Positions 11,564-56,830 of a DNA stretch of 64,000 nt are shown piece by piece. The stretch is from Actinomycetota bacterium (lineage in GTDB: Bacteria > Actinomycetota > Thermoleophilia > BMS3ABIN01). Location of the stretch: NCBI GenBank assembly GCA_023382335.1, contig JAMCPM010000006.1, positions 258,372-322,371 of the forward strand, written 5' to 3'. The notes beneath the pieces were generated by a model. The model was not told the origin of the DNA and made no database searches. It saw only the letters and a program-made list of their open reading frames with translations. Both the position numbers and the translations under genes were made by a program. How positions within the stretch are numbered: the stretch's first letter is position 1; each line of letters opens with the position of its first letter.

Positions 11564-13660
11564 TTATTTGTTGGTCAGGTATGGCACGATCAGCAGTGCC
11601 ACGATGTTGACGACCTTGATCATCGGGTTGATGGCCGGGCCGGCAGTATCCTTGTAGGGGTCGCCTACGGTGTCGCCGGTAACCGCGGCTGCGTGGGCGT
11701 CAGAGCCCTTGCCGCCGTATTTTCCATCCTCGATGAGTTTCTTGGCGTTATCCCAGGCGCCGCCACCGCTGGTCATGGAGATGGCAAGGAACAGGCCGGT
11801 GACGATGCTTCCCACCAGCACGCCGCCCAGCATCTCATAGCCGAGGCTCTCGGCGCCGAGGGCGCGCGGAACCAGGCCGATGATCAGCGGGGTCGCTATG
11901 GGAATGATGGCCGGCAGCATCATCTTGCGAAGGGCTGCCTTGGTGACGATGTCGACGCACTTGCCGTATTCCGGACGCCCCGTCCCTTCCATGATGCCAG
12001 GGATCTCGCGGAACTGACGGCGGACTTCTTCCACAACCATGCCGCCGGCGCTACCAACCGCTTCCATGCAGAGCGCGGCGAAGATGAACGGCAGCAGGCC
12101 GCCGATGAAGAGGCCGACGATGACCGGCGCGCTCTGGAGGGCGAAAGCCGACTTGAGAGCCTCCGGGTTGACATGCTTGCCGAGTTCGTCGGTATAGGAC
12201 GCGAACAGCACCAGGGCGGCCAGACCGGCGGAGCCGATGGCGTAACCCTTGGTGACGGCCTTGGTGGTGTTGCCCACCGCGTCGAGCGGATCGGTGATGC
12301 CGCGGACTTCCTCGGGAAGCTCGGCCATCTCGGCGATGCCGCCGGCGTTGTCGGTGATCGGCCCGTAGGAGTCGATGGCGACGACGATGCCGGTCATGGA
12401 CAGCTGCGCCATGACGGCGACAGCGATGCCGTAGAGGCCCGCCTCATAGTTGGCCAGCAGGATGCCGCCGGCGATGACGAGTACGGGCAGGGCGGTCGAT
12501 TTCATGCTGACCGCGAGGCCGGCGATGATGTTGGTCGCCGAGCCGGTCTGCGAGGCGGCCGCGATATGCTTGACCGGGCCGTACTTCGTCGCCGTGAAAT
12601 ACTCGGTGATGATGACGATGGCGCCGGTAACGACCAGGCCGATCAGGGTACAGACGTAGATGTTGCCCCAGCCGACGACCTTGCCGTCGGCCAGTTTCGG
12701 CAGAGTCCTCATGAGCCAGTAGGTCACGGGGATGAAAGCTGCGGCAGCCAGAACGCCACTGGCGATGAGGCCCTTATAGAGAGCCGCCATGATGCCGCCG
12801 CCGGCGCCGATGCGCACGGCGAAGCTGCCGATGATCGAGGCGAGAATGGAGACGCCACCGATGACCAGCGGGAACATGAGCGCCTTGTCGTTGTTCGGGA
12901 AGAGCAGCGAGCCCAGCAGCATGACAGCAACGGCCGTCACGGCGTAGGTCTCGAAGAGGTCGGCCGCCATGCCGGCGCAGTCGCCGACGTTATCGCCGAC
13001 GTTATCGGCGATGACCGCCGGGTTGCGCGGGTCGTCCTCGGGGATGCCGGCCTCGACCTTACCAACCAGGTCGGCGCCGACGTCGGCGGCCTTGGTATAG
13101 ATGCCGCCGCCGAGACGGGCGAAAACGGAAACGAGGCTGCCTCCAAAGCCGAGACCGATCAGCGCGTCAACAGCTTCCTTGGAGTTCAGGCCTCCCCACC
13201 TGGTCATGATGCCATAGTAACCGGAGACGCCCAGGAGGGCGAGCCCGACGACCAGCAGTCCGGTCACGGAACCGCCGCGGTAGGCCACGTTCATGGCCGG
13301 CTTGAGTCCGCCGCGGGCCGCCTCGGCGGTGCGCACGTTGGCGCGCACGGAAACCATCATGCCGATCCAGCCGGTTGAGGCCGAAAGAATAGCGCCTACG
13401 AGAAACGCGACGCCGGTATGCCAACCAAGGGCAATTGTCAAAATTACAAACAGCACTACCCCGACGATTGCCACCGCACGGGTCTGCCGGTTCAGGTAGG
13501 CTTTGGCGCCTTCCTGGATCGCGCCGGCGATCTCCTGCATCTTCTCATTGCCAGCAGGCAACTTGAGAACCCACATAATGAGGATGACACCGTAAACAAC
13601 CGCCGCGGCGCCGCAGGCAATGGCAATCGCCACCGCATTGTTAGATACAAAACTTTCCAA
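11564..13660 (-). CDS. hppA: Membrane-bound H+-translocating pyrophosphatase, K+-independent type
   Basis: Pumps protons with energy from pyrophosphate hydrolysis. The 698-residue, multi-helix protein carries [11 protein letters not shown] (193-203) and [12 protein letters not shown] (219-230), the catalytic pyrophosphate-Mg site. In the class-determining segment [10 protein letters not shown] (463-472), Lys467 and Thr470 occupy the positions that are Ala and usually Gly in K+-dependent enzymes. This points to the K+-independent H+ pump. TTG start at 13660 with GGAGAG upstream. It is a single-gene transcript ending at the hairpin at 11495. Such pumps help energy-limited anaerobes recover energy. 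Confidence 0.97.
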
Positions 13661-13972
13661 TATCTCTCCTCTCTATTCGCGGGATACCCCCGGTTTTTTT
13701 GAACGCCCCCCTGTTCATGCTGGACTCAGGGGTGGACGCAGTCGCACTTATCAGACCGGCGCAATTTATATCAGATTGACGGGAAAAGATAAAGAAGCGG
13801 CGCTACAAATGAATCCGGATTCAAGATAAGCTACATCAGATAAATCAATAGTGAATTGCAGAATGCATCATTCATCGTGATGAAACGGGTTGGATGCGGA
13901 TCGGTTGAGGCCCGGCATGATGCCTACGGAGCGGTTCAGATGAGACTGGGCACGTGGCCCGAGGCGTGGTTG
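13661..13972. other. Intergenic region between hppA and the LysR gene
   Basis: 312 bases without a convincing gene. It holds the hppA ribosome-binding site and presumably its promoter; TATAAA near 13765-13770 on the minus strand is a weak candidate. It also has a perfect palindrome GAATCCGGATTC at 13811-13822 and a weak hairpin in the hppA leader (CCCCTG at 13708-13713 with CAGGGG at 13727-13732). Base composition is lower in GC than the flanking genes. Confidence 0.5.
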
Positions 13973-14887
13973 TTACGTAAGGTCGGGCACGAGGCCCGTG
14001 GAGCCGCCACCGGTGACCAGCAGCTCGCGGAATTTGACTGACGCGGGAGATGAGTATCTGTCGCCGACCGTGATCAGGTAGAAATCGCGCTTCAGCACGA
14101 CATCCTTGACGGCAACCTGCTTGAGGATCCGGCCTTCGAGCTGCGCGTGCACTGCTCGCCGGGAGAGCATGGAAACGCCCAGGCCGGCCGCAACGGCGGT
14201 CTTGATGGCCGAAGAATTGCCCAGCTCCATGGTCACGTTCAGTTTGGAGATCCCCTGGCGGGCGAGCGTCTCCTCGATGACGTCGCGGGTCCCGGATCCC
14301 GCCTCCCGGGTGATGAAAGGCTCCTGCATCAGCTCGTCTTTCGTGACCGCGTCGCGCTCGGCCCAGCGGTGGCGGGGACTGACGATCAGGACCAGTTCGT
14401 CCTTCTCGATCGACTCCCGCACCAGCGAGGGATTCTGCACATCGTGCTCAACGACCCCCAGCGGGAACATTCCCGCCAGTAGCTGGTCCTCGATGATCCT
14501 CGTGTTCTCCACGATCAGCGATACCTTCACTTCCGGATAGCGCTGCTTGAACTCGCCGAGGTAGAACGGCATGAGATAATTGCCCACGGTAGTGCTGGCG
14601 CCCACGTGCAGCTCGCCGCCCTTGAGGCCGCGCAGGTCGTCGAATTCCTGGTTGATCTCATCCTCGATATCGAGGATCCGCAAGGCCTTCTCGTAGAGGA
14701 TATGCCCGGGCTCGGTCAGCGTAGCCCCCTTGCTGCCGCGGTCGAAGAGAACGACGCCGTAGCGGCGCTCGAGCGCCTGGATCTGCTGGCTGACCGCGGA
14801 CTGGGACATGAACAGGTCCTCGGCCACGGCCGAAAAGTTCCCTTTGCGGGCAATCGAGCAAAATGTTCTTAGCTTGGTTAGATCCAT
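13973..14887 (-). CDS. LysR-family transcriptional regulator
   Basis: 304 residues: N-terminal winged HTH (SAVAEDLFMSQSAVSQQIQ, 19-37) and a periplasmic-binding-like effector domain beginning at GASTTVGNYLMP. The overall pattern is closest to the CysL/CbbR-like branch. The start is ATG at 14887 behind AAGG; the longer frame adds 29 unrelated residues. It is divergent from the decayed methyltransferase at 15074, with 186 bases between the starts, so its target may have been lost or it may act elsewhere. The inducer cannot be predicted. Confidence 0.92.
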   Translation of the reverse strand: MDLTKLRTFCSIARKGNFSAVAEDLFMSQSAVSQQIQALERRYGVVLFDRGSKGATLTEPGHILYEKALRILDIEDEINQEFDDLRGLKGGELHVGASTTVGNYLMPFYLGEFKQRYPEVKVSLIVENTRIIEDQLLAGMFPLGVVEHDVQNPSLVRESIEKDELVLIVSPRHRWAERDAVTKDELMQEPFITREAGSGTRDVIEETLARQGISKLNVTMELGNSSAIKTAVAAGLGVSMLSRRAVHAQLEGRILKQVAVKDVVLKRDFYLITVGDRYSSPASVKFRELLVTGGGSTGLVPDLT

Positions 14888-48500: not shown

Positions 48501-49143
48501 GGGCAAACAGCTTGCGGATGTCGTCATCGCCGCCGTAACCCAGCGCGCGCAGCAGCACCGTCACCGGCAGTTTGCGCTTGCGGTCGATGCGGACATTGAC
48601 GATGCCCTTCTTGTCGATCTCGAGCTCCAGCCAGGACCCGCGTGAGGGCATGAGGTTGGCGATGAACATCTGCTTGGCCGAGTCCTTGGGCTCCATGACA
48701 TAAGCGCCCGGGGAACGGACCAGTTGGGTGACGACGACACGCTCGGTGCCGTTGATGATGAAGGTTCCCCACTCGGTCATCATGGGAAAGTCGCCCATGA
48801 ACACCGACTGCTCGCGGATCTCGCCGGTCTCCTTGTTGATGAACCGGACGGTCATGAACAGCGGGGCGGAGTAGTTGCCGTCCTTGTCGCGGCACTCCTC
48901 GATACTGCTGGTCGGGGGCTCGAAATGATGCTCGCCGAACTCGACGGCCAGAGTGCCGGTGTAGTCCTCGATCGGTGAGATGTCAGCGATGGTCTCGCGC
49001 ACGCCTTCATCAAGGAACCACTCGTAGGAACTTTTCTGAATATCGATGAGGTTGGGGACCTCTAAAATCTTTTCGAGTTTGGAGAAGGATCTCCGTGGGC
49101 GGGGACTTACAGCGTAGTCAGACAGTTGCTCCAAAAGGCTCAC
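45547..49143 (-). CDS. rpoB: DNA-directed RNA polymerase subunit beta
   Basis: 1198 residues. The rifampicin-pocket region [20 protein letters not shown] ... [10 protein letters not shown] keeps the key Asp, His and Ser of sensitive enzymes, with Ala where E. coli has Pro in SALGPGG. Catalytic-centre residues and the C-terminal anchor ([22 protein letters not shown]) are present. The last ~50 residues are a Glu/Ala/Val-rich acidic tail. GTG start at 49143. It has its own promoter and is not directly behind rplL as in most bacteria. Confidence 0.98.
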
Positions 49144-49200
49144 CCCTCGCGGATGGGATTATTGCAGGGTAATAGGAACGTGCCGAGGCACGAACAAGGA

Positions 49201-49229
49201 AATATAACATAACGGGTTTTCGGAAGCAA
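49201..49229 (-). promoter_or_regulatory. Predicted rpoBC promoter
   Basis: TTGCTT (49224-49229), 17-base spacer, TATATT (49201-49206) on the minus strand. The ~50-base leader contains a small hairpin CGTGC-CGAG-GCACG (49179-49192). The rest of the 49144-49404 gap shows no gene. Confidence 0.55.
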
Positions 49230-49404
49230 GGTAACCCAAATGATTTATTTCAGAATGTGTCCTTCGCGGCCCGGCCCGCATAATTTTTACGGTACCCGGT
49301 GGGCGGGGTTTGAAACACGGGGCGGAGCCGTTTCCAGGAACCGTTTCCCGGACGTCAACAGGAAAGGCCTTAGACAATTCTTCGGGGAAAACCCCTAGAC
49401 GCCG

Positions 49405-51990
49405 TTATCCAAACAGCTCGTAATCGCCTTCGATGAACTTCTGGGCATACTCTTTTACGGCGCCATCACTGGTCAGCATGGCGTCCAGCTGGCGGGTAAA
49501 GGCCATCAACCGGCCGGCCTGGTCGAGCAGGCGCACTGTCTCCTCCTGGCTGATATTCGTGATCGTGGCTGTGATCAGATCGCCCTTGGCCCGGGAAGCA
49601 AACCCGAGATGGTCGAGGATTATCTCCAGCATCTCGATGCGGCGAAGCCGCTTGGAGAGGTCGGCTGCGCCTCCGAGGAAGCGGAAATATATGTGATTGC
49701 TGGCGGCCCGCTGGCTGGCAAAACAGTCGACGACTGTGTAGTGGTAACCAAAACGGACGGCCAGATTCATGTAGAAGTGGGAGATCACAGCCAGGTTGAT
49801 ATCGACATCTTCGAGCAGGGAGCCCGTGCGCATGCTGGCGGTGAAGAAGTCGGAGATGCTGATGGGGACCCCTCCCTTGCGCCAGGCGCCAGGAAAAGAC
49901 ATGCCGTCCAGTATCGCCCTCAGCGGCACCGAGGCCACCTCGTCGACGCCGATGACGTCGCCGGCGCCGGCAGCCAGTCCGGCGCCGATATCGATCACGT
50001 GGATGTTATCCATGAACGGGATGTCCAGCCGTTTCAGCGCCGGCCCGCGCTCGGCGTGCCTCGAGGCTTCGATCAGTTCCCGCATCGATTTTTCATGGAT
50101 GAACCTGAGGATATCGTGGATGGTGCGGCAGTTCTCAGGAGCGAAGTCGTCGGTGAAAGGGTTGACCAGATTCAGAGGCGTGATGTATTTCATCACGAAC
50201 TTGCGGCGCCGGAACTCATACAGCTCCTCGAGTTTGAGGAAGGTGTCGTGCTGCTCGTCGATGATCTCGCGGGCGATCCCCTCATAGACGGTCATGCTGC
50301 CGTCTTCGCCGGCCTGCAGGGTGATCTCGGCGCCGGGCTTCAGCACGGTGGTGGCGACCCTGGTGTTGACCACCGTGGGCACCCGGAACTCGCGGCTGAT
50401 GGAAGCCATGTGGCTGGTGGTGTTGCCGGCGTCGGTGATGATGGCCGCGGCGTAGGGCATCACCCGCGCATAGCGGGGTGAGTCATGCCGGGCCACCAGA
50501 ATCGCGTCCCGCGGGAATTCCTCGAGAGCCTCCGGGGAGCTGGCGAAAAATACCCTGCCGCCGACAGCACCGGGCTGCACGACGTTGCCCTTGTTGTGCA
50601 GGAGCACGTTGTGCCCGGCCGTCGAAGCCTGGCCCGGACCCGCTTCGTGCGGGCCTCGTTCCTCAGCCGCTTCCCGAAGACCCACCGCCGGAGCCGCCCG
50701 CTCGATCCTCAGCGGCCGCGCCTGCAGTATCACCACGCGGCCGTTTGCGTCCAGCGCCCATTCGATATCCTGCGGGCGCCGGTAGAATTCCTCGATGGCC
50801 AGCGCCTTGTGGACGATATCCTCGAGGTCCCTGGGCGCCAGGGAAAAGGCGTGGCGCCTGTCGCCGGCCGTGTCGATCTCACGCACGCCGGCTTCGGCCG
50901 CAAGAGCCGTCATCGTCTCTTTCCTGCCGAGGGTCCTTTGGGCCACCTCGAAGGGAGCGGTCTTCTCTACCACGAACCTGTCGGCGTCAGCCGTGCCCTC
51001 GACCACGGACGGGCCCAACCCCCAGGACGAGTTGATCACCATGACGCTGTCGTCGCCGCCAAGGGGGTCGGCGGTGTAGGCAACGCCGCTGGCGGCGGCA
51101 TCGACCATGGCGACGCAGCCTACCGCCATCCGCAGACTTCCCGGCCGGTAACCCAGCCGCCGCTGGTAAGCCATGGCTTCGTCGGAAAAAAGGCTGGCGG
51201 CTACCCGCCGGTATGCATCCCCGACAGCCGCGGTCTCGGCCGGGACTCCCAGCACCGTTTCGAACTGACCGGCAAAGGAAAAGAAACCATCCTCCTCTTC
51301 GGCGCTGCTTCTGACCGCCACATTGCAGCCGCCGCAGCGGCTGCGGAGCCAATCCAGGGCCACGTTCAGGTCACTTTCAAGGGAAGGCGGAATGCTCCCG
51401 GCAAGGATCCGCTCGCGCAGCCGGCGCCGGCGCCCGGGCTCGTCGCCGTCGCTCTCCAATGAGGCGATGGCCTCACCGAGCTGGTTGTGCCGGATAAATT
51501 CCTCAAAGGCGAAGATCGTCAGCGCAAAGCCGTCAGGGGCCGGCAACCCCAGCCTGTTCCTGATTTCCGCCAGATGAAAATTCTTGCCCCCCACTTCGCG
51601 CGCCATCGCCGGTGTGATCTCCTCGAAGCGGACGGTCAGCCGCTCCAGCGGCCGGGCGTCTCCGGCAACGAGGGATTCGATATGCTCATCGATCTCTTCA
51701 AAGGCGCGCGTGAGCGCAGGGTATGACCTGGCCGTCAGCTGGTTGAAATCCTTCAGCGAGACACGCACGCTCGCGGCCAGGTCGGAGTAGGCCTTGCGCA
51801 GATAGACGATGTCGAAAAGGTAGCCGCCGCTCATGGTCTCGCCCATATCGGTGATGATCTCCAGGGCGCGGCTGTTGTCGTCCATGACCCTCTTGTAAGC
51901 GGCAAAGGCCGCGCGCACGTCGACCGTGCCGCCCTCGTTGCGGCCGGCATACCTTCCCACCAGGGATAGCATTTTCTGCCTGAGTGTCAA
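49405..51990 (-). CDS. PEP-synthase-like phosphotransferase with unrecognised C-terminal half
   Basis: 861 residues. After a helical N-terminal region (1-120) comes a PPDK/PEP-synthase ATP-binding domain: VGGKNFHLAEI (133-143), VRSSAEEEDGFFSFAGQFET (226-245), SSWGLGPSVVEG (321-332), DIEWALD (408-414) and ILQARP (421-426). Then comes the swivelling phosphohistidine domain, with His527 in NTTSHMASISRE. The pyruvate/PEP TIM barrel expected next is not recognisable. Residues 580-861 instead carry IDIGAGLAAGAGDV, FYMNLAVRFGYHYTVVDCF and a helical end. TTG start at 51990 abuts the response regulator stop; ATG at 51972 is an alternative. Substrate unknown. Confidence 0.8.
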   Translation of the reverse strand: MTLRQKMLSLVGRYAGRNEGGTVDVRAAFAAYKRVMDDNSRALEIITDMGETMSGGYLFDIVYLRKAYSDLAASVRVSLKDFNQLTARSYPALTRAFEEIDEHIESLVAGDARPLERLTVRFEEITPAMAREVGGKNFHLAEIRNRLGLPAPDGFALTIFAFEEFIRHNQLGEAIASLESDGDEPGRRRRLRERILAGSIPPSLESDLNVALDWLRSRCGGCNVAVRSSAEEEDGFFSFAGQFETVLGVPAETAAVGDAYRRVAASLFSDEAMAYQRRLGYRPGSLRMAVGCVAMVDAAASGVAYTADPLGGDDSVMVINSSWGLGPSVVEGTADADRFVVEKTAPFEVAQRTLGRKETMTALAAEAGVREIDTAGDRRHAFSLAPRDLEDIVHKALAIEEFYRRPQDIEWALDANGRVVILQARPLRIERAAPAVGLREAAEERGPHEAGPGQASTAGHNVLLHNKGNVVQPGAVGGRVFFASSPEALEEFPRDAILVARHDSPRYARVMPYAAAIITDAGNTTSHMASISREFRVPTVVNTRVATTVLKPGAEITLQAGEDGSMTVYEGIAREIIDEQHDTFLKLEELYEFRRRKFVMKYITPLNLVNPFTDDFAPENCRTIHDILRFIHEKSMRELIEASRHAERGPALKRLDIPFMDNIHVIDIGAGLAAGAGDVIGVDEVASVPLRAILDGMSFPGAWRKGGVPISISDFFTASMRTGSLLEDVDINLAVISHFYMNLAVRFGYHYTVVDCFASQRAASNHIYFRFLGGAADLSKRLRRIEMLEIILDHLGFASRAKGDLITATITNISQEETVRLLDQAGRLMAFTRQLDAMLTSDGAVKEYAQKFIEGDYELFG

Positions 51991-52359
51991 TTACGAAGCT
52001 TCCGCCAGCGCCTTGCTGATCGATTCCTTGAGGTCCTTGATCCTTACCGGTTTGGGGAAGAAATCGAAGACGTCGGCCTTGATCGCCTCGATAGCGACGT
52101 CGAGGTCGGCAAAAGCCGTGATCATGATCACCTTCGTGTCCGGATGCGTCTGCTTGACCGTCCGCAGCACTTCGAGCCCGTCGATTCCTTTCATCTTGAG
52201 GTCGGTGACCACGACGTCGAAATCAGTCTCCTGCAGCCGCTTCAGAGCCGGGTCGGCATTGAGGAAGGTCTCGACTTCATAGCCCTCCTCCTCGAGCGAT
52301 ATCTTCGCCATGTCACCGACGATCTTCTCGTCATCGATGACCATTATCCTTGTGCTCAT
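51991..52359 (-). CDS. Receiver-only response regulator
   Basis: 122 residues, a single CheY-like domain: acidic pocket D9/D10, phospho-acceptor D53 (VVVTDLKMKG), T81 and K103 (FFPKPV). There is no output domain. Its start overlaps the histidine kinase stop (ATGA) and its stop touches the PEP-synthase-like start, so it should be made with both. It may act on the phosphotransferase or the DUF202 proteins by direct contact; inferred. Confidence 0.95.
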   Translation of the reverse strand: MSTRIMVIDDEKIVGDMAKISLEEEGYEVETFLNADPALKRLQETDFDVVVTDLKMKGIDGLEVLRTVKQTHPDTKVIMITAFADLDVAIEAIKADVFDFFPKPVRIKDLKESISKALAEAS

Positions 52360-53765
52360 TGGTTTCCTTTCTGGTTACGGTTGACTGGAAGCTGGATTGT
52401 GAAGGTCGTGCCGATTCCGGGGGTGCTCTCGACCCGGATGTTCCCGCCGTGATTTTTGATGATGCTGTAACTGACCGAAAGCCCCAGGCCGGTGCCGCCT
52501 TCTTCCTTGGTGCTGAAGAACGGATCGAAGATATGGGGCAGATACTCCCGTTGGATACCTTTCCCCGTGTCCCGGATTATGATGTCCACCATCTTTTCCT
52601 CGGGCTGCAGCCGCGTGCTGACGAACAGCCGTCCACCGGGCGCCATCGCCTGGGCGGCGTTGAGGAAGAGGTTGACGAACACCTGCTGCACCTGGTTGTC
52701 ATCTATAAATATGTCCGGCAATCCTTCAGCCATGTCGAGGCTGGTCTCGATGCTGGAGACGCTGAGCGTGTTCTGTACCAGCACCAGCGCCTTGGTGACC
52801 AGCGCGTTGACATCGATCCGCCGGGGCTTGGGCTCCTTGGGACGGGCGAAATCAAGCAGGTTGTTGACGATGCCCTTGATCCGCTCCGATTCCTGGTCGA
52901 CCCTGCGCATGAATTCGATCCGCTGCTCTTCACTCAGCTTCAAATACATGTCGTCATAGGTCTGGGCGATCATCGAGATGTTATTGACCGGGTTGTTGAG
53001 CTCGTGGGCGACGCCGGCCACCAGCACGCCGATCGATGCCAGCTTCTTCGACTGGATCAGCTCCTCCTCACGTTCTTCGAGCTCTTCAGACATCGAATTG
53101 ATGGCGTCGATCACAGGCCCGAACTCATCCTTGGGCATGGGCGTCTCTATCTTCTTGAAGTTGCCGGCGGATATGGACCGCGCCAGGCGCTCGATCTGCT
53201 TGATCGGCTCCAGGATCTTCCTTGTCACCGAACGGCTGGCGATCAGCGCCGCCACCAGCACGGCGAAGAACGAGGCGAACAGCAGCCATTTGGAGCGGGT
53301 GATGATATCGCTGATGCGCGAGCGCTCCACCTGGATGATGCGGTTGGAAGTGTTCTCGAGGGTCCGCCCCTTCTCACGTATGTCCGCCGCAGTCTGCACG
53401 TCGCGCGCATGCGTGGAGGCGGCCTGGTCGATGGCGGCGGAGTAATCATTGAGCCCGTTCCTCAGATCGTTGTAGCTCTGCTCGCCGATCACGGGAACGA
53501 TGTCCTCCCGGAACGATTCCATGATGTCGCTGGTCTGGGAGATGTTGCTCTGCATGTCGCTGAGCGCCTGGTTGTCGTTGAAAAGGAAATAGTTCTTCTC
53601 GGCAAGCCTCATGGTCAGGAAGGAGGTATTGAGGTCGTCGGCGATCTCCAGGAAGCGCTGCTTGCCGCTGACGCTGTTGAGCGACTGCACGGCAAAGCCC
53701 CCGATGATCAGGATGAGCACCAGGTAGACGGTATTGGAGAGAATTATCTTGCGTTCGATTTTCAT
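52356..53765 (-). CDS. Sensor histidine kinase with HAMP domain
   Basis: 469 residues. TM1 (9-28), an extracytoplasmic helical sensor of about 130 residues (30-158), TM2 (160-178), HAMP (about 178-232), HisKA with phospho-acceptor H254 in VAGVAHELNNPVNN, and HATPase with N369, DTGKGI (399-404) and GTGLGLS (424-430). The helical-bundle sensor resembles chemoreceptor-type four-helix domains. ATG at 53765; 33 bases after the preceding DUF202 gene. Confidence 0.96.
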   Translation of the reverse strand: MKIERKIILSNTVYLVLILIIGGFAVQSLNSVSGKQRFLEIADDLNTSFLTMRLAEKNYFLFNDNQALSDMQSNISQTSDIMESFREDIVPVIGEQSYNDLRNGLNDYSAAIDQAASTHARDVQTAADIREKGRTLENTSNRIIQVERSRISDIITRSKWLLFASFFAVLVAALIASRSVTRKILEPIKQIERLARSISAGNFKKIETPMPKDEFGPVIDAINSMSEELEEREEELIQSKKLASIGVLVAGVAHELNNPVNNISMIAQTYDDMYLKLSEEQRIEFMRRVDQESERIKGIVNNLLDFARPKEPKPRRIDVNALVTKALVLVQNTLSVSSIETSLDMAEGLPDIFIDDNQVQQVFVNLFLNAAQAMAPGGRLFVSTRLQPEEKMVDIIIRDTGKGIQREYLPHIFDPFFSTKEEGGTGLGLSVSYSIIKNHGGNIRVESTPGIGTTFTIQLPVNRNQKGNQ

Positions 53766-53798
53766 GTCAGCCGTGAAGGTCTCTGCCGGGCCCGGCTT

Positions 53799-54884
53799 TC
53801 ATGCCTGGCGCGCCGGAGTAGTCATCAGCCGCCGCAGATCCGGCTCTTCCTTGCGGGCCGGCACGTACCAGAGCAGTCCATCGACGATCATCAGCACGCC
53901 GGCGGCTATGAGCAGCAGACCCCAGAGCGCCACCGGACTCACCTGGAAGTACTGCACCAGGCCGGCGCCGATTCCCAAAAAGACGATTCCCGTCCTGATG
54001 AAGGCCAGCCCGGTCCGCCCACGGGCGTAAAGGGTCCGGTAACAGCCGGCCAGGGTGCGATGCGCCGCCAGCATGTCGCGCTCGCGCGCCAGGTGGGTGC
54101 GCTCGCGGCTGGCGGGCTCGGGCCTGAGGACACTGCAATAGTTGGGAAGAAACTCAGCCAGGCGCGAGAGCATGGTCCCCTTGACCGCAGGCCGGAACGT
54201 ACATTGCAGTTCGTAGTTCTCAAGGAAGCTGACCGTGGCGGTGGTGACTTCCACCAGCGTCTGCGGCCCTGGCGCCTTCATCATCGAACGGCGGATGCGC
54301 AGGTAATGGAACAGGCCCAGCACGGTGACCGCCGCTCCGGCGACCAGCAGACTCCAGTACATCAACGTGGTCAAGGAAAGGTTGAGCTCGAGGACTGCCG
54401 AGGCGCTGGCGACCGTGATGAAGCCCAGGCCCCAGCGCAGGATGCTCAGCGAGACCCTCGCCTTGGCCAGATCGTTGCGGTAACACGCCATCCTTGTCCG
54501 CCAGGCAGCCATGGTGTTGCGCCAGAAAGCCAGTCCGGTGCGCTCAGTGCCGATGATCCTGCCGGGACGGTCGCTCAGATAATCCTCGATGTACCAGCGG
54601 ATGTCCCCGGCCGGCGCCCGCCGCAGCTCGTAGGGAGCGTCTTTCGCGATCCTGGCGATCTCAGCCGGTTTGACCCGGCCGGGATCCGCCGCAGCCAGCA
54701 CGACGGTCCCGCCTTCCAGAAAGACCGGGAATATCAGCTCGCGTGAGAGCGCTTCGGGATCCAGGCCCTCCAGCAGCTCGGGCGGCACCGGCAGCCGCTC
54801 GTCGTACACGATTGTTTCCGGGTCCGCCATCGCGGCTCCCGGTTCTGCATTCCCTATGTGATTGCCCGGGTTAGAGGTCGTCAT
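53799..54884 (-). CDS. Membrane protein with MshEN-like N-terminus and two DUF202-like modules
   Basis: 361 residues. Residues ~33-103 (PELLEGLDPEALSRELIFPVF ... IRWYIEDYL) resemble the small MshEN/type-II-secretion-ATPase N-terminal fold, which can bind c-di-GMP in some proteins. A degenerate DUF202-like module (113-196) and a canonical one (262-343, with GRTGLAFIRTGIVFLGIG and VDGLLWYVP) follow, each with two membrane helices after an Arg-rich amphipathic helix. ATG at 54884 overlaps the previous gene by 14 bases; ATG at 54830 with GGGAG is a good alternative. Function unknown. Confidence 0.75.
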   Translation of the reverse strand: MTTSNPGNHIGNAEPGAAMADPETIVYDERLPVPPELLEGLDPEALSRELIFPVFLEGGTVVLAAADPGRVKPAEIARIAKDAPYELRRAPAGDIRWYIEDYLSDRPGRIIGTERTGLAFWRNTMAAWRTRMACYRNDLAKARVSLSILRWGLGFITVASASAVLELNLSLTTLMYWSLLVAGAAVTVLGLFHYLRIRRSMMKAPGPQTLVEVTTATVSFLENYELQCTFRPAVKGTMLSRLAEFLPNYCSVLRPEPASRERTHLARERDMLAAHRTLAGCYRTLYARGRTGLAFIRTGIVFLGIGAGLVQYFQVSPVALWGLLLIAAGVLMIVDGLLWYVPARKEEPDLRRLMTTPARQA

Positions 54885-56109
54885 GGCTGAACACCACCTT
54901 GCCCCATCTGCCGCGGGGTTTGCCGTAATCGGGCAGGTTGATCTCCAGATCGCCGTAACAGTAAGGGAACTGGCGGCGGGTTCTCTCCGAGTAGCGGTAC
55001 CAGCGCAGGCCGTCGGCGATGAGGACGGCGCCCGTCAGGATCAGCGCCATGTCGAAGATCCCCCAGACGGGACTGACCGTGAGAAAGGCGATCAGGCCGG
55101 CGCCCACAGCCGAGATGCTCATGCCAGTTCGCACGAAGGCCAGGCCGGTGCGCGAATAAGCCATGACCGTCCGCAGGCGCGACATGAGGTTGCGGCGGTC
55201 GGCCAGCACCGTGCGCTCCAGCGCCAGGCCGGTGGTCCCCCAGATGCCTGGCGCCTGTGATGCCTTGAGCGGCGGATAGCTGCCGCGGGAAGTCCTCAGT
55301 GGCGGGAACAGTTCGTCCCAGATGCCCGGCTCCTGCAGCGAACGCTTGAAACGGCGCAGGCTCTCGAGGCCGGCGCGGTAGCCGGGCAGGTACCAGAAGA
55401 AACCCTCCAGGGCCATCAGGGTGCCGACAACGATGAGGAAATAGTCAAAATAGTTCCAGCCGGTGGCCGGCAGCTTCCTGACCAGGGCGATGCCGAGGCC
55501 AGCGAAGGCCACGCCCGAGCGCGTGAAAGCCAGGCCCATTCGTGATTTGGCCATGGTCGTCCTCAGGGAAGAAAGATTCGTCCGTTCTTCGGCCAGGTCG
55601 GTGCGATCGTTGGCGAGGAAACGCCTGCGCTCGACCGGGCTGAGGTTGCTCCAGCCAGCCCTCAGGGTTTCGGCGTCGGTGACGGTGGCGCTGCGCCTGA
55701 ATCCCGGCAGACCGCTTTCGCCTTCGTCTTCCACCTGCAAGACCGATATGCCCGGCGGCCGTGCCGGCGGGATGTAGTCAAGGTCCCTGGATGCGTCACG
55801 GCGCACGGGCAGGTACCAAACCAGTCCGTCGTAGATGGCCGCGGCCCCACCAGCCATAAGCAGCAGGTCAACCGGCAGGAAGAGGCCGGAGCCAAACGTC
55901 CTCAGCAGGGTGACGGCTATCGTCACCAGGGCTATGCCCGTGCGAAAGAATGCCAGACCGGTACGCCCCCGCGACATGGCCGTGCGCTGATCGGAGAGGG
56001 CCGAGCGGCGGTCCGCCAGATAGTTCCTGACTTTGGCCAGCGGAGTCCGCCCTTCGGGAACCGGATGATCCGCGTCTTCCTCAGGGATATCGATCGGGTT
56101 TATCGCCAT
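54871..56109 (-). CDS. Membrane protein with three tandem DUF202-like modules
   Basis: 412 residues made of three repeats (about 30-102, 168-243, 298-372). Each has an Arg-rich helix with RxxM/L-x3-RT, the signature R(T/M)GLAF-x-R(T/S)G, a first membrane helix, and a second ending in (D/E)G(L/F)xWY. Linkers are Pro-rich. DUF202 is normally a single module in small membrane proteins and in the membrane part of eukaryotic VTC polyphosphate polymerases (family knowledge). ATG at 56109 without a strong ribosome-binding site. First gene of the five-gene operon. Confidence 0.75.
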   Translation of the reverse strand: MAINPIDIPEEDADHPVPEGRTPLAKVRNYLADRRSALSDQRTAMSRGRTGLAFFRTGIALVTIAVTLLRTFGSGLFLPVDLLLMAGGAAAIYDGLVWYLPVRRDASRDLDYIPPARPPGISVLQVEDEGESGLPGFRRSATVTDAETLRAGWSNLSPVERRRFLANDRTDLAEERTNLSSLRTTMAKSRMGLAFTRSGVAFAGLGIALVRKLPATGWNYFDYFLIVVGTLMALEGFFWYLPGYRAGLESLRRFKRSLQEPGIWDELFPPLRTSRGSYPPLKASQAPGIWGTTGLALERTVLADRRNLMSRLRTVMAYSRTGLAFVRTGMSISAVGAGLIAFLTVSPVWGIFDMALILTGAVLIADGLRWYRYSERTRRQFPYCYGDLEINLPDYGKPRGRWGKVVFSHDDL

Positions 56110-56344
56110 TGGACCAACCGTTTAATATTTAAACTTCGATAAATTAGCATACAATAAAAAATTATACATCCTTTTAGCCCTCAATCCCTTTATTACCCAA
56201 TAATCCGCAAAACCAAAGATGTGGTATGAAGTCAACCGCATCAGAAAATTTGCGGCGTGCGGCAGCAGAAAACCTGGAAGATTTCATGCGGAAATCTTTC
56301 GCGGAAATCAAGCTCCCGGGGGATAAGAGCCGGTGAATAAGAAT
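56110..56344. promoter_or_regulatory. AT-rich upstream region of the DUF202/HK operon
   Basis: 235 bases without a gene, markedly AT-rich near 56120-56170. It contains an inverted repeat GTTTAA-TAT-TTAAAC (56120-56134) just before the ATG and a TATAAT on the minus strand near 56150-56155, without a matched -35. It probably holds the operon promoter. Confidence 0.45.
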
Positions 56345-56377
56345 CGGGGCGGCGCTGCCTTCGGCAGCGCCGCCCCG
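56345..56377 (-). terminator. Terminator after rplL
   Basis: Perfect 15-bp GC-rich stem (56345-56359 with 56363-56377), 3-base loop, then ATTCTTATT on the minus strand. It lies 76 bases past the rplL stop and would separate rplJL from the inserted operon. Confidence 0.7.
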
Positions 56378-56452
56378 TGAGCTTCAGAACGTTATCTTTG
56401 CTTCAGGCCGCGTCCGGTTCCCGGAACGCCGCAGTGCTTCTGATCCTTTGTG

Positions 56453-56830
<378 letters not shown>

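Follow-up and report, generated by a model that had tools for sequence, protein, structure and literature searches.

A conserved operon joins DUF202 membrane proteins, a two-component system and a dikinase-type phosphotransferase in three bacterial phyla

Phosphoenolpyruvate (PEP) synthase and pyruvate phosphate dikinase (PPDK) combine an ATP-grasp domain and a swivelling-histidine domain with a PEP-binding TIM barrel. The same chemistry, with the acceptor domain replaced, is found in rifampin phosphotransferase (RPH), HpeHI, CreHI and PpsAB, which act on drugs or phenols (PMC4844700, PMC12167813); in RPH and HpeHI, the ATP-grasp and swivel domains are joined to new acceptor domains (PMC12167813). 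A protein with PPDK-type and mobile domains also occurs in the Desulfovibrio 'nitrate cluster' (DVU0251-DVU0245 / Dde_0597-Dde_0605), together with a TauE permease, a hypothetical protein, a PtxB-like protein, a kinase and a receiver (PMC4001038). The yeast VTC complex, whose subunits are annotated with DUF202 (PMC4400040, PMC7283521), is a 3:1:1 pentamer with a channel lined by basic residues of the first transmembrane (TM) helix, such as K24 and R31 of Vtc1, which are seven residues apart (PMC9911596). Here we describe a five-gene operon in a 64,000-nucleotide stretch of DNA (the window) from an Actinomycetota bacterium (assembly GCA_023382335.1, contig JAMCPM010000006.1, positions 258,372 to 322,371). 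It encodes two DUF202 membrane proteins (D3 and D2), a sensor histidine kinase (HK), a stand-alone receiver (RR) and a PEP-synthase-like phosphotransferase (PEPS). We propose, with a probability of roughly one half, that the five proteins form one signalling-and-phosphotransfer machine at the cell membrane, in which a phosphotransferase under two-component control acts on or through a VTC-like membrane complex.

The five open reading frames (ORFs) occupy the minus strand of the window in the order D3 (54871-56109; 412 residues), D2 (53799-54884; 361 residues), HK (52356-53765; 469 residues), RR (51991-52359; 122 residues) and PEPS (49405-51990; 861 residues, with a TTG start). Their coordinates and their junctions, which from D3 to PEPS are -14, +33, -4 and 0 bases, agree with the five co-directional genes, overlaps of 14 and 4 bases, 33-base gap and stop-start contact described in an initial annotation made from the sequence alone. 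We searched for relatives by scanning genome contigs with the PEPS protein and then comparing ORFs. The order D3-D2-HK-RR-PEPS is found in four relatives of the host (L035, L036, L037 and L039, all Actinomycetota; D3 of L039 is cut by the contig end), in four Desulfobacterota metagenome-assembled genomes (MAGs; L040, L041, L044 and L046, the last with a cut D3) and in one Nitrospirota MAG (L093). Because the gene order recurs in three phyla, the operon is real and not a product of chance. When six operons are compared pair by pair, the identities of the five genes correlate with one another (r of 0.90-0.99), and in a tree of 79 PEPS proteins all of the operon-linked sequences (11/11) fall in one clade with an SH-aLRT of 100 (no shuffle as low in 500). 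In three further loci (L163, L164 and L165), a single protein that combines a DUF202 module with extended heptads and a receiver is encoded directly upstream of PEPS. The initial annotation had suggested that the five genes act as a functional unit and had named homologues that are never neighbours as one of two findings that would speak against this; the homologues do adjoin elsewhere, and the conserved order, the single PEPS clade, the co-divergence and the DUF202-receiver fusion uphold the suggestion.

A full-length D2 was present in nine genomes in a survey of 395 genomes from the phylum of L040, and in the host phylum D2 was confined to the host's family, in 6 of 396 sampled genomes, with more family members coming from a separate search. 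In the neighbourhoods of these nine D2 genes (L154-L162), D3-D2-HK-RR is present, with PEPS adjacent in L156, close in L158 and L161, or elsewhere in the genome.

PEPS consists of four parts, two of which are recognised by Pfam as PPDK_N and PEP-utilizers, the latter being the swivel domain with the catalytic histidine. A helical domain at approximately residues 22-118 (51637-51927, minus strand, as for all features below) is common to the whole family, is an addition relative to PEP synthase and PPDK, and may be where the receiver docks. It is followed by the ATP-grasp domain (residues 132-434; 50689-51597), in which the catalytic residues K136, R227, E410, Q423 and R425 are invariant in 65/65 relatives of PEPS, and by the swivelling phosphohistidine, His527 (codon 50410-50412), which is likewise invariant in all 65. 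With these ATP-grasp residues and H527 invariant, PEPS should be able to carry out the ATP-to-histidine half of the dikinase reaction. A C-terminal domain of ~277 residues (585-861; 49408-50238) takes the place of the PEP-binding TIM barrel. The lack of a PEP-binding domain had been overlooked in the initial annotation, as had the truncated MshEN domain of D2 described below. Eight polar residues of this C-terminal domain (C621, H625, D626, R629, H750, R784, D804 and D836) are invariant among the 65 relatives. A profile of residues 585-861 matched no Pfam family and no PDB sequence, and a fold search with PEPS, for which the predicted structure of the region is mostly of good confidence, returned relatives of the ATP-grasp and swivel parts and nothing for the C-terminal domain. 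The best PDB matches of the PEPS model include RPH and HpeI. By analogy with RPH and HpeHI, the C-terminal domain is presumed to be a new acceptor-binding domain; the acceptor domains of RPH, HpeHI, CreHI and PpsAB are not recognisably related to it.

In Pfam, D3 is a DUF202 protein and D2 combines MshEN with DUF202. A module profile built from ten DUF202 modules resolves three copies in D3 (residues 21-104, 162-245 and 292-376) and two in D2 (residues 115-199 and 262-345), the numbers given in the initial annotation. Each module of D3 has a long helix with a run of R-T-x-x-A heptads followed by two TM segments, and throughout the DUF202 modules of the operon an arginine recurs at every seventh residue on the helix that leads into the first TM segment. 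An AlphaFold2 model of D3 (mean pLDDT 70.8, pTM 0.70) places the helices at residues 23-72, 158-212 and 287-343. The module profile gives the same count, exactly 3+2 and hence five, in 20/20 D3-D2 pairs, including the pairs from genomes without PEPS. In a tree of the modules, the five positions need 4 label changes for 5 labels, which is the minimum possible; D3a, D3b, D3c and D2a are each a clade with support of at least 98, and D2b is unresolved but not contradicted. It follows from this tree and the constant count that the five modules are old, distinct and fixed in order, as expected of a fixed hetero-assembly.

These features allow a comparison with yeast VTC. VTC contains five DUF202-type modules, as many as one D3 and one D2 would bring together, and in both cases the module's first helix has basic residues spaced seven apart. 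However, VTC has a TTM polymerase and an SPX domain, neither of which is present in the operon, and the partner enzyme in the operon is instead an ATP-grasp/phosphohistidine protein. VTC subunits have three TM helices each, whereas the modules of D3 and D2 have two predicted TM segments each and are strung in two chains. The agreement between 3+2 modules and the five of VTC thus predicts a specific structure but does not prove it.

The MshEN match in D2 (residues 28-106) is a remnant that starts only at position 8 of the profile, with the usual N-terminal part missing, and D3 has no MshEN. The c-di-GMP motif, in the form RLGxxLxxxG...L...L..Q, is absent from all 40 D3 and D2 proteins, and control by c-di-GMP through MshEN was rejected. 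Single-module bacterial DUF202 proteins, of which the host has one (L001), share the canonical L-A-N-E-R-T-F-L-A-W-x-R-T motif with D3 and D2 but have one module, lack the extended R-T-x-x-A heptads and lie outside a two-component operon. Single-module proteins with very long heptad stalks do occur, without the operon nearby, at L166 7280-8083, L167 6866-7645 and L168 6965-7792. In the DUF202-receiver fusions (L163 7726-8778, L164 7436-8470 and L165 2645-3697), about ten R-T-x-x-A heptads accompany a single DUF202 module, and the receiver is C-terminal.

HK and RR form a two-component pair encoded together. In HK, two TM helices flank a periplasmic helical region and are followed by HAMP, HisKA and HATPase_c domains, with the phospho-accepting His254 (codon 53004-53006) intact. 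RR is a single receiver domain with an intact phospho-acceptor, D53, and no output domain. H254, D53 and H527 of PEPS are the residues that the initial annotation had singled out. RR is ~73-76% identical across phyla, compared with ~41-56% for the other four proteins, and this high conservation could mean that the receiver binds several partners.

In the wider PEPS family, the usual neighbours of PEPS are a receiver, a kinase and a TauE/SafE permease. A receiver is encoded within 400 bases of PEPS in 31/54 wider-family loci, compared with 16/133 control ORFs, and in 26/35 loci PEPS has a TauE/SafE permease nearby. Neither the window operon nor the genes next to it encode such a permease, and the same is true of L035. 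It is close to a D3-D2-type operon in L040, L041, L044, L154 and L158, and in four of these Desulfobacterota loci (L040, L041, L044 and L158) the D3-D2 operon is next to a TauE/Alph_Pro_TM cluster. Two congeners of the host (G001 and G004) and a further member of its family (G009) have the permease version instead (L219-L221). PEPS paralogues from distant branches of the tree can also be clustered, with four in L046 (3639-14220) and three in L156 (1933-14227), and in Nitrospirota some PEPS proteins have an extra C-terminal domain of ~200 residues (L088 564-3806, L099 7932-11114 and L101 7920-11111).

The combination of a PEPS-family protein, a kinase and a receiver in one cluster links the operon to the Desulfovibrio nitrate cluster, which also has a histidine kinase, a stand-alone receiver, a PPDK_N/swivel-domain protein and membrane or accessory proteins. 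Its membrane partners differ, being a TauE/SafE permease, a hypothetical protein and a PtxB-like binding protein rather than DUF202 proteins. Addition of 100 mM nitrate made no difference to the growth of strains with insertions in DVU0246, DVU0247, DVU0250 and DVU0251. Among isolated mutants, nitrate resistance followed from insertions in the genes for the TauE permease, the hypothetical protein, the receiver and the PPDK-like protein; a leaky thiosulfate transporter was the authors' suggestion (PMC4001038). A Desulfovibrionaceae locus (L180) has a composition similar to that of the nitrate cluster, with true PEPS-family proteins; one of them (12194-14788) has a much diverged ATP-grasp domain, with a weak PPDK_N match and a long branch, and is possibly a regulatory partner of the intact protein beside it. 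We found no paper on DUF202 together with a histidine kinase and PEP synthase. The statement in the initial annotation that no such system had been described thus holds for the five-gene set in the literature searched, but not for its HK-RR-PEPS half, which corresponds in composition to the nitrate cluster (PMC4001038).

In the mechanism that we propose, an extracytoplasmic signal would cause HK to phosphorylate RR, and phosphorylated RR would act by binding both the D3-D2 membrane complex and PEPS. PEPS would transfer phosphate from ATP to His527 and then to an acceptor held by its C-terminal domain, where the invariant C621, H625, D626 and R629 are located, and this phosphotransfer would activate, load or regulate the membrane complex. 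D3 and D2 together, with 3+2 modules, probably form one VTC-like pseudo-pentamer with an arginine-lined path for anions. The docking, phosphotransfer and channel formation in this scheme are read from the anatomy of the proteins. Our best guess for the transported or bound ion is an oxyanion, because sister systems, with the same enzyme, kinase and receiver and a TauE/SafE permease, control nitrate entry or toxicity in Desulfovibrio. A bolder version, in which the five modules make a VTC-like, arginine-lined channel for an anion or a phosphorylated polymer, PEPS is the phosphotransferase of dikinase type dedicated to charging or gating it, and the stand-alone receiver is its switch, would be new to bacteria, but we regard it as speculative and rather doubtful.

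Several observations weigh against the proposed machine. Five genomes of the host's family have D3-D2 without any PEPS in the genome, and there D3-D2 adjoins a different kinase and a sigma-54 regulator upstream; PEPS is also not adjacent to D3-D2 in the Desulfobacterota loci L154, L155, L157, L159 and L160. Because these five host-family genomes keep D3-D2 without PEPS, D3-D2 can work without the enzyme, which is not obligatory and is a partner rather than the engine, at least in PEPS-less genomes. When the D3 model was compared with solved structures, the best matches were ABC exporters with E of 0.03 or worse and a TM-score of ~0.2, which we read as generic helical bundles, and a D3 profile gave chance matches only among PDB sequences, with no solved DUF202 structure matched. 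In the nitrate cluster, the phenotype of DVU0250 was inconsistent between pooled and isolated mutants (PMC4001038), and the kinship of DVU0246 with the PEPS family is judged from its annotated domains and neighbours.

Other explanations account for part of these data. The genes could be neighbours through shared transfer only, with D3-D2, HK-RR and PEPS acting separately, as the occurrence of D3-D2 and PEPS each without the other might suggest; the long co-divergence across phyla, the single clade of operon-linked PEPS, the overlapping genes and the DUF202-receiver fusion beside PEPS make this improbable. It is unlikely, too, that PEPS is a second phosphodonor or sink in a phosphorelay, exchanging phosphate directly between its phosphohistidine and the aspartate of RR, and not a metabolic enzyme. 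RR and PEPS adjoin in the operon and often elsewhere, and a conserved receiver without an output domain is expected where there are several partners, but the invariant polar residues of the C-terminal domain are typical of a substrate site, and the characterised relatives (PEP synthase, PPDK, RPH and HpeHI) phosphorylate small molecules (PMC12167813). The closest family matches of PEPS are PEP synthases (over residues 117-580), as is its best PDB match, 2ols, and PEPS might on these grounds be a PEP synthase or PPDK in an operon that regulates central carbon metabolism. However, Pfam finds no PEP/pyruvate-binding domain (PEP-utilizers_C, PF02896) in PEPS, and its scores against the PEP-synthase models TIGR01418 and NF005057 are 275 and 287.7 bits, far under the curated cut-offs of 739.75 and 598. 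The host encodes all the domains of PEP synthase in another protein, which scores 498 and 516 bits, also below these equivalog cut-offs, and it has a PPDK above its cut-off. PEPS is thus not an ordinary PEP synthase, so the other finding that the initial annotation had named as speaking against it is not observed either. We rejected this identity as highly improbable, and the role in PEP metabolism raised in the initial annotation is not supported.

The operon might instead be a counterpart of VTC, in which PEPS builds polyphosphate from ATP via His527 and a five-module D3-D2 channel translocates it under two-component control. The five DUF202 modules and their basic heptads favour this explanation, as might the fact that PPK1 and PPK2 were not found in the host and are lacking in nearly all tested genomes with all or part of the operon, G116 alone having them. 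This absence is uninformative because PPK1 is rare in the comparison phylum anyway (11/148 Desulfobacterota-group genomes), and relatives without D3-D2 also lack it; the link to polyphosphate drawn from the missing kinases was rejected. D3-D2 persists without PEPS, many PEPS relatives are linked to TauE permeases and not to DUF202, and Pfam finds no VTC-type TTM/CYTH polymerase domain in the five operon proteins, the rest of the genome not having been searched for it. Overall, such a counterpart seems quite unlikely. Polyphosphate as the substrate, as the initial annotation had suggested, is possible and allowed by the link between DUF202 and VTC, but is unsupported by specific evidence, and the earlier interpretation as a whole is partly supported.

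The setting of the operon differs among genomes. Normally, rplL and rpoB are consecutive. In the window they are separated by the operon (49143-56453), the same insertion is seen in L035, and in L037 and L039 the operon is located elsewhere. Between rplL and D3 lies a strong hairpin resembling an intrinsic terminator (56345-56377; 15 pairs, 14 of them G-C). The operon is probably transcribed separately from the ribosomal-protein genes because this hairpin follows rplL. Among the operon proteins, PADLOC models gave generic receiver-domain matches of RR only, and a role in anti-phage defence was rejected for want of a specific match. In some host-family genomes without PEPS, a receiver adjoins D2, and in the host-family loci L214-L218, also without PEPS, D3-D2 lies beside a kinase, a sigma-54 response regulator and an unassigned protein of 174-224 residues.

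The operon is a real variant of two-component, phosphotransferase and membrane systems, shared across phyla and undescribed in the literature searched. Three new findings stand out: the module count is invariably five, a novel and presumably acceptor-binding domain is joined to ATP-grasp and swivel domains with their phosphotransfer residues intact, and the operon has a tie to the nitrate cluster. In the widespread DUF202 family, the proteins understood best are those that make up the VTC channel, and the strict 3+2 count across phyla predicts a bacterial five-module complex built from two chains. If the proposed channel were confirmed, it would represent a further principle, beside the phosphotransferase system (PTS) and VTC, for coupling phosphotransfer to transport. 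Through the operon, an orphan dikinase family that has multiplied in sulfate reducers, and whose C-terminal domain is unassigned, is connected with two-component receivers and with membrane proteins. This supplies a concrete hypothesis for the Desulfovibrio locus whose effect on nitrate resistance is unexplained, a matter of relevance to the control of souring.

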